DNA from: Oscillatoriales cyanobacterium Centralia_MAG_596
Lineage (GTDB): Bacteria > Cyanobacteriota > Cyanobacteriia > Leptolyngbyales > Leptolyngbyaceae
Direction of reading: 5' to 3'
Length of the DNA: 37,259 bases
Assembly: GCA_021323955.1 (NCBI GenBank)
Contig: JAJPKC010000321.1
Coordinates: 1-37,259, forward strand
Translations under genes and position numbers: made by a program
Part shown: piece by piece, positions 29,364-31,168 of the stretch
How positions within the stretch are numbered: position 1 is the first letter of the stretch
Layout: each line of letters starts with the position of its first letter
The notes under the pieces: generated by a model
Seen by the model: the letters and a program-made list of their open reading frames with translations, nothing else
The model's database searches: none
What the model was told of the DNA's origin: nothing

Positions 29364-29579
29364 CTACAAATCCTCTGGCTTCAGTCCTGTTCGCTTAGCA
29401 ATGCGCGCCAGCATTTTGGGACCAATTTCCTGTCCATCATGAAAGGCAAAAACCACATTTTCCCAACCAGAGCGCGACAGGATTTTGTGCGAGCCGCCTG
29501 CTTTCCGTTCAACGCTCCAACCAATCCGTAACAAAGCCGCTAACACTTGCTTTGCCTTGGTCGATCTCCACTGACTCAT
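29364..29579 (-). CDS. hicA: HicA-type toxin (mRNA interferase)
   Basis: 71 aa; KAKQVLAALLRIGWSVERKAGGSHKILSRSG...VVFAFHDGQEIGPKMLARIAKRTGL: HicA dsRBD-like fold with the GSHKI histidine. Confidence 0.92.
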   Translation of the reverse strand: MSQWRSTKAKQVLAALLRIGWSVERKAGGSHKILSRSGWENVVFAFHDGQEIGPKMLARIAKRTGLKPEDL

Positions 29580-29782
29580 GCTGCCAAAAACGCAACGTGA
29601 TCAAGTTCTGTTGCGTTCTCACCCTGTTCAAGACGATCAGCCAGAACACGAAGTGCTAATGCTTTGACCCGCGCCATAGCGTCTTCACGACTCTGCCCAT
29701 AAGCAAGGACGCCTGGTAAATCTACAACTTCAGCAATCCAGCGTCCATCGTCTTCTTGTTCCAACTCAATTGTTAGATTCAT
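29576..29782 (-). CDS. hicB: HicB-type antitoxin
   Basis: MNLTIELEQEDDGRWIAEVVDLPGVLAYGQSREDAMARVKALALRVLADRLEQGE; overlaps hicA by 4 nt. Confidence 0.92.
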   Translation of the reverse strand: MNLTIELEQEDDGRWIAEVVDLPGVLAYGQSREDAMARVKALALRVLADRLEQGENATELDHVAFLAA

Positions 29783-29835
29783 ACACTTTTTTATTAATAC
29801 GGCTACTTCACTTAAATAATAAATCTATGAAAGAC

Positions 29836-29984: not shown

Positions 29985-31168
29985 CTAATTCTCACTCAAT
30001 ATTTTTGCGTAAGATTTATCGCTATCTTTATTACGCCAAGTTGGTTTGATATGCTCTACAAGAGCTGGAAGATCTTCCTCTAGAGTCGATTTCCAAAGTC
30101 TTGGATTGTAATCATAAACTCTAAGCATACTATCTACATCAAATATTGGTTTTGTTCCTAAAGCTCTAATCAAAGCGACTGGTTTTTCTAAAGCTATTCT
30201 CCATCCCAATTCAAATAGGACGTTGGGATTATGTTCCGTCAGGTCTACTATCATCAAGTCAGCTTTGCTTAAATCACTGATTATTGTGCGTTGAATAATA
30301 TCGCTGCCTGATTTTCTAGCTGTCTCGGCTTTAAAGCCAGCTTTTACTGCGGCAGGAACAATTAATTGAGTTAGTACTTCCCGAAAAAAATCTATTGGGT
30401 ATTCTCCAGTTTTCTCGGAAAAAGGAAGAGCAACAAATGCAACTAAGGTCGTTTTTTCCTCTGGCTCTCCAAGAATAACAGCATTATCGGAAGCTTTTGG
30501 CTGGGTAGGAATTGTGGTTTTTGTTTTTCAATAGAAACGGGATTTGCTGCTACATCAACTGTATCTAATTCAGTCTTGCTAAATTTAGAAATGAACTTGA
30601 GATTAGATTGATATACTTGATAAAAATCATTATGGAAATCTTCGTTGAGACCGAAATCTGTTACGAGAGTATTCTTAAGGTATTTAATTTCTGGTAGGAG
30701 TCCGCCACTGTAGTAGTCGTGCACTCTCTTAAAGAGAAGAATATTGAATAATCCTTGTCTGTAGCCATTTTCCTCTTCCTCTTTTGATCTGGCGAACACT
30801 ATATTTTGACCTGTTAAGGCGAGTGCAATTTTTTCGGCTTTTGAGTAACCCTCCGTAAAGCCGTAATCACGAGAGGATGCCGTCAAATAGTAGAAGGTAT
30901 TACCTTTGCTGCTTAACTCTCAAGCTTTAGCTACATCGTCCGGATGCCACGGATTTCCACCATTAAACTCTCTAATGACCTGAGCAATTTTAATGGAGTC
31001 TTCCAAAGTGTTAATAGGAAAAGGGCGATTGCCTTTCGTTCTTTTTCTCTTTCTTCTTTCGCTAGAATCCTGCTGACTGTCGGAATCTTCTTGTTATTCT
31101 AAATCTTCATCTAGTGTTTCTTCTGAAGATTCCTCTTGCTGGCGACTGTCTTCAGGTTCTATAGTCAT
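29985..31168 (-). pseudogene. Decayed gene: N-terminal helical/wHTH-like domain + C-terminal TIR-like / nucleoside 2-deoxyribosyltransferase-like effector domain
   Basis: One continuous reading frame from ATG 31168 interrupted by TAA (31094-31096), TGA (30920-30922) and a frameshift near the A-rich tract about 30516-30530. Rejoined C terminus: TKTTIPTQPKASDNAVILGEPEEKTTLVAFVALPFSEKTGEYPIDFFREVLTQLIVPAAVKAGFKAETARKSGSDIIQRTIISDLSKADLMIVDLTEHNPNVLFELGWRIALEKPVALI... Confidence 0.85.

Follow-up and report, generated by a model that had tools for sequence, protein, structure and literature searches.

A dead winged-helix/NDT-like gene in a cyanobacterial genome and its intact relatives as a candidate family of antiphage sensor-enzymes partly linked to TM-macro ThsA

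In TM-macro Thoeris, a TIR-like ThsB produces ADPR, IAD or His-ADPR, and the macro domain of ThsA binds the nucleotide, oligomerizes and clusters the membrane helices (PMC11204291). Three ThsB subfamilies with a tyrosine near the catalytic glutamate occur only with TM-macro ThsA; TIRs that act as NADases usually lack this tyrosine (PMC11204291). Swarozyc is built on a DUF4062 TIR-like NADase with an HTH/winged auxiliary domain, and this combination of winged-helix sensor and TIR-like NADase can be triggered by a phage portal and kill by NAD+ loss (PMC13174449). The Retron-Eco1 complex is described as NAD+-hydrolyzing filaments in the title of Carabias 2024, as cited in PMC12548924. Furthermore, domains of the nucleoside 2-deoxyribosyltransferase (NDT) type, also termed 'DrHyd', have been predicted to act in conflict systems, either as cyclases or as NADase effectors (PMC9503650). 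Herein, a family that joins a winged-helix (wHTH) head to an NDT-like domain is examined from a dead copy and its intact relatives. The family has not yet been described as antiviral, and the dead copy looks like a lost antiviral gene.

The dead copy lies in a 37,259-nucleotide stretch of DNA from Oscillatoriales cyanobacterium Centralia_MAG_596 (contig JAJPKC010000321.1), hereafter the window, in the order gltB, dead gene, HicB, HicA and cmk/panC. Translation reproduced what the original prediction had placed on the minus strand at 29985-31168, namely one gene with two in-frame stops and one frameshift. Its parts, and the two genes downstream of it, are as follows.

29985..31168, minus strand: whole decayed gene, from ATG at 31168 to TAA at 29987-29985, about 394 codons (translation and relatives)
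31040..31168, minus strand: acidic then basic leader, predicted to be disordered, containing lesion 1 (similar leaders in L004 and L018)
31094..31096, minus strand: lesion 1, in-frame TAA (translation)
30530..31012, minus strand: tandem winged-helix (wHTH) putative sensor module, containing lesion 2 (A8 profile; AlphaFold model of L047)
30920..30922, minus strand: lesion 2, in-frame TGA inside the first wHTH (translation)
30518..30530, minus strand: lesion 3, frameshift zone in an A-rich linker (translation)
29988..30527, minus strand: predicted NDT/DNPH1-like (TIR-related) catalytic domain, Glu of NPNVLFELG kept (PF05014, PADLOC, AlphaFold, Foldseek)
29579..29785, minus strand: HicB-like antitoxin gene, intact, sharing 61% identity with the HicB that follows the L045 copy
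29364..29579, minus strand: HicA-like toxin gene, intact, 71 aa, 68% identical to the L045 HicA, which matches PF07927

After the TGA, the minus-strand frame stays open to about 30530; from 30527 the reading continues in a different frame and ends with the TAA at 29987-29985. To avoid circularity, the profile used to assess homology (A8) was built from the seven intact relatives only, with the window sequence excluded, and was run against 2513 sequences, including 2000 shuffles of the window N-terminal part. In this set, the read-through N-terminal part scored E 7.1e-15 and the C-terminal part E 8.3e-10, while the best of the 2000 shuffled N-terminal parts reached E 0.075. Both window domains belong to the wHTH plus NDT/TIR-like family defined from intact members, and the broken gene, with its two in-frame stops and one frameshift, is confirmed as real, far above chance. 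The ATG at 31168 is probably the true start, because the intact proteins L004 and L018 begin with a comparable leader, likewise acidic and then basic; in the model of the intact relative L047, the leader has a pLDDT below 50. The lesions were read from one draft assembly (704 contigs, 91.7% complete) and the frameshift sits in an A-rich stretch, as would be expected if the gene were intact in the organism and damaged by a sequencing or assembly error. This is nevertheless very improbable, because three independent lesions fall within one 1.2-kb gene while its neighbors are open (gltB, 1554 aa; panC-cmk, 549 aa; HicB and HicA), and decay was also found in other family members (L094/L045 and L074).

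The C-terminal part had been assigned to the nucleoside 2-deoxyribosyltransferase superfamily, and this assignment is supported by PF05014, matched at E 3.5e-6 (27.6 bits, just under the curated cut-off of 28.8), and by structural comparison. An AlphaFold model of the window's own C-terminal part (pLDDT 82) gave NDT, MilB and DNPH1 as top Foldseek matches, with a best E of 1.3e-5 (NDT) and a TM-score of up to 0.70 on DNPH1, and the top matches of intact L047 were likewise NDT, MilB and DNPH1. As the catalytic Glu motif NPNVLFELG is also retained, the domain is predicted to adopt an NDT/DNPH1-like, TIR-related N-glycosidase fold with its catalytic glutamate in place. In the relatives, the Pfam search returned no match to PF05014, and NCBIfam gave no match for any piece of the window gene. 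The additional label 'TIR' holds only loosely: the fold is TIR-related and the PADLOC 'TIR effector' model matches the window C-terminal part at E 2.9e-5, but no Pfam TIR model, including PF08937 (ThsB_TIR), matches the window or the relatives, and the PADLOC ThsB models do not match the family. In the alignment, six of the seven intact members carry a tyrosine in strand 1, replaced by F in L047 and by V in the window; this residue may be equivalent to the tyrosine near the glutamate of the TM-macro-linked ThsB subfamilies.

For the N-terminal part, the AlphaFold model of L047, an intact relative from a Thermoplasmata genome, is helical with two wing-like strand pairs (pLDDT about 90) and is read as two winged-helix units in tandem, in agreement with the helical, wHTH-like module originally proposed. 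A relation to DUF5343, suggested at the same time, found no support, the N-terminal part being without any Pfam family match in the window or the relatives. The first winged-helix part also occurs joined to an unrelated C-terminus in G293 (L037/L075:3679-4485), and the head is thus a possible mobile sensor module.

Seven relatives share the architecture, all full-length and with the same domain order: three from cyanobacteria (G011, G194 and G023), one each from a Limisphaerales genome (L046) and the Thermoplasmata genome (L047), and two from IMG/VR proviruses (L049 and L054). They are 42-79% identical to the G011 protein. The window copy is an outlier at 20-25% identity, including when it is compared with the ThsA-linked branch described below. 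Among the 390 cyanobacterial genomes searched, full-length genes were found in two, together with one broken operon. No additional full-length member was recovered from further cyanobacterial genomes or from a second provirus scan with the N-terminal part, and plasmid and phage collections yielded matches to the C-terminal domain only. Relatives consisting of the C-terminal domain alone are common; in many Staphylococcus and Streptococcus prophages, they appear as stand-alone NDT/TIR-like hypothetical proteins, up to 46% identical to the G011 domain, and these are possible candidates for prophage-borne defense genes. Another decayed member, in G191 (L074:9890-10534), retains the leader and first wHTH part only and ends in unrelated sequence overlapping a ParE-like gene.

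In G011 and G194, a TM-macro ThsA gene lies directly upstream on the same strand, at 69 and 54 nt, respectively (PADLOC E 7.5e-40 and 3.9e-36; PF20016 E 1.2e-27 and 5.2e-26). The pairing is not a matter of chance, because such a ThsA is present in only 19 of the 390 cyanobacterial genomes; the two wHTH-NDT proteins are 75% identical and thus one lineage, met in two families and at two different genomic locations. G023 has, near a contig end running into an insertion-sequence-like end, the 5' half of a ThsA gene (63-67% identical; L094), and its wHTH-NDT gene (L045) begins, without its leader, at another contig end. This operon was probably broken by insertion, the contig join being deduced. 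Since the three ThsA-linked copies are 75-79% alike, they represent one lineage and not three independent pairings. The family also occurs without ThsA, as the whole genomes holding L046 and L047 contain none. L046 is followed by a D12 methyltransferase gene and L047 by genes for a GmrSD_N protein and a HEPN protein; L049 is preceded by a serine recombinase (named by inspection) and lies near a HEC-07-like gene, and L054 adjoins a phage terminase-like gene (named by sequence inspection). Some neighbors of family genes are housekeeping genes, and the listing is descriptive, covering the seven intact members. Intact homologs, anticipated by the original prediction, exist and lie in defense or mobile contexts. 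Its view of the protein as an abortive-infection or depletion effector does not cover the part of the family that shares an operon with TM-macro ThsA as its TIR-like partner, in which the enzyme may be a signal maker and not the killing effector.

Two further kinds of gene were observed beside TM-macro ThsA. DUF4062 (Swarozyc-type) genes adjoin it in at least six cyanobacterial loci (L110, L112, L113, L115, L116 and L117), with matches of E 6e-10 to 2e-3, mostly just under the curated cut-off. Some DUF4062 proteins may therefore be ThsB-like partners of TM-macro ThsA; the main text of the Swarozyc paper does not mention ThsA (PMC13174449). In G001, a genome of the window's own genus, the ThsA partner is a 376-aa protein (L079/L111) with a CAP12/Pycsar TIR domain (PF10137, E 2.6e-17) after an unassigned N-terminal part, and the G001 ThsA is 60% identical to the G023 fragment.

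At the window site, the G+C content of the dead gene is 38%, against 54-57% in gltB and panC-cmk. When six sister genomes were inspected at gltB, one contig ended there, four had other genes after gltB, and in one (G003) only a short segment separated gltB from cmk, in which there was a HicB remnant but no vestige of a wHTH-NDT gene. Either the window's lineage acquired the gene or G003 lost it; acquisition is favored by the low G+C and by the absence of the gene elsewhere in the genus. The HicBA pair between gltB and cmk is intact in the window (29364-29785), whereas HicB is decayed in G003 (L102:2721-2840). HicBA was also considered as a part of the system itself, but the pair comes after the gene in the window and at L045, not in G011 or G194, and is thus regarded as a neighbor only. 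The window genome gave no match to PDLC00410 or PF20016, that is, no ThsA was found.

On balance, these observations make it somewhat probable that the window gene, now dead, arrived by horizontal transfer and once encoded an antiphage sensor-enzyme, of a family that acts in a ThsB-like manner in the ThsA-linked branch. In such a protein, the leader and tandem winged-helix head would recognize either part of the phage or a host molecule that the phage has altered, and the engaged head would allow the C-terminal N-glycosidase to cut NAD+ or a nucleotide by means of the conserved glutamate. In the ThsA-linked cyanobacterial branch, which we infer to work like ThsB, the enzyme would produce an ADPR-type signal, driving the membrane protein TM-macro ThsA to oligomerize, so that the infected cell is killed or arrested; in the other members, the enzyme probably works by itself, through NAD+ or nucleotide depletion. 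This interpretation draws on the recognition of both domains by a window-free profile, the NDT/MilB/DNPH1 fold matches of the window domain and L047 with the tandem wHTH head, the ThsA operon in G011 and G194 and its remains in G023, the defense or phage genes beside L046, L047, L049 and L054, the low G+C relative to the flanks and the sister genome without the gene at the same site, with TM-macro Thoeris (PMC11204291) and Swarozyc (PMC13174449) as precedents. It is weakened by the distance of the window copy from the ThsA-linked branch and its valine where that branch has tyrosine, by the lack of ThsA in the genomes of the window, L046 and L047, by the origin of the ThsA-linked copies in one lineage, and by a picture of defense neighbors drawn from seven intact members only.

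The lack of ThsA in the genomes of the window, L046 and L047 lends weight to a narrower version of the preferred interpretation, confined to the window copy itself, in which it was an abortive-infection NADase resembling Swarozyc or the Retron-Eco1 effector, which worked without a second-messenger partner and killed by NAD+ depletion. The chance of this falls slightly short of even. A partnerless winged-helix protein with a TIR-like NADase is a demonstrated design (PMC13174449), the title of Carabias 2024 (cited in PMC12548924) offers a parallel in NAD+-hydrolyzing filaments, and the valine of the window copy fits NADase TIRs. The best-conserved cyanobacterial relatives, however, stand in a ThsA operon, DUF4062 (PF13271) does not match, and no reverse transcriptase was recognized as an immediate neighbor of any member. 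That the effector was instead a nucleotide or nucleoside N-hydrolase, acting on deoxynucleotides or CMP-like nucleotides and not on NAD+, is unlikely. The Foldseek matches to NDT, MilB and DNPH1 rather than TIR point in this direction, as does the tyrosine-glutamate pair of six of the seven intact members, which resembles deoxynucleotide enzymes (PMC11204291); yet the TM-macro-linked ThsB proteins share this arrangement and point to an adenine-dinucleotide signal (PMC11204291), and the window domain has no such tyrosine. An ordinary metabolic or regulatory role, in which an enzyme of nucleoside salvage would be joined to a winged-helix regulator and have no part in defense, is more doubtful still: NDT and DNPH1 relatives are metabolic enzymes and some neighbors are housekeeping genes, but such a role agrees poorly with the patchy distribution among cyanobacterial genomes, the low G+C, the carriage by proviruses and the ThsA operon.

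Beyond the single gene, a broader proposal is put forward tentatively, at rather less than even confidence: that the family constitutes an undescribed Thoeris sensor-enzyme class, in which the place of the standard ThsB is taken by a tandem wHTH head fused to an NDT-like N-glycosidase, and TM-macro ThsA acts as the common executioner for at least four kinds of TIR-like partner (ThsB_TIR, DUF4062, CAP12-type TIR and wHTH-NDT). If this were true, one TM-macro ThsA would serve several different NAD-processing sensors, the sensor being swappable while the signal and the killer stay constant, and a part of Thoeris would have been missed by annotation tools. It would also tie nucleoside-hydrolase-like enzymes to ThsA signaling, with a bearing on the identity of their product. 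The main value of the window copy is that of a fossil pointing to the wHTH-NDT family.

Compared with known systems, the family shares with the NDT, DNPH1 and MilB enzymes the predicted fold and the catalytic Glu motif, but differs in its low identity to them (11-20%), its fused winged-helix head and its non-metabolic context. The Retron-Eco1 (Ec86) effector resembles it in having an NDT-type domain, and also has a winged-helix part; the immediate neighbors of the window gene and of the intact members were identified as other genes, with no reverse transcriptase recognized among them, and the PADLOC retron-effector models gave no match. Swarozyc likewise unites a TIR/NDT-related enzyme and a winged-helix module in one protein and is patchy and mobile, but the order is reversed, the catalytic domain being N-terminal there and C-terminal in the wHTH-NDT family. 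No shared sensor sequence was detected between the two, and PF13271 (DUF4062) matches neither the window nor the relatives, for which reason the window gene is not filed as Swarozyc. The CAP12/Pycsar-type protein of G001 is comparable as a partner of the same ThsA subfamily and in its C-terminal TIR-like domain behind an N-terminal part of about 220 aa, but its catalytic family is PF10137; homology between its N-terminal part and the wHTH head was suspected, and none was detected on comparison. With regard to TM-macro Thoeris, the family differs by its tandem winged-helix head and by matching no ThsB_TIR or other Pfam TIR model, and the window copy, having neither ThsA in its genome, where it was looked for, nor the tyrosine, is not filed as Thoeris. 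The likeness lies in the cyanobacterial relatives placed directly after the TM-macro ThsA gene and in the strand-1 tyrosine of most intact members, which, as far as the alignment indicates, corresponds to that of the TM-macro ThsB subfamilies.
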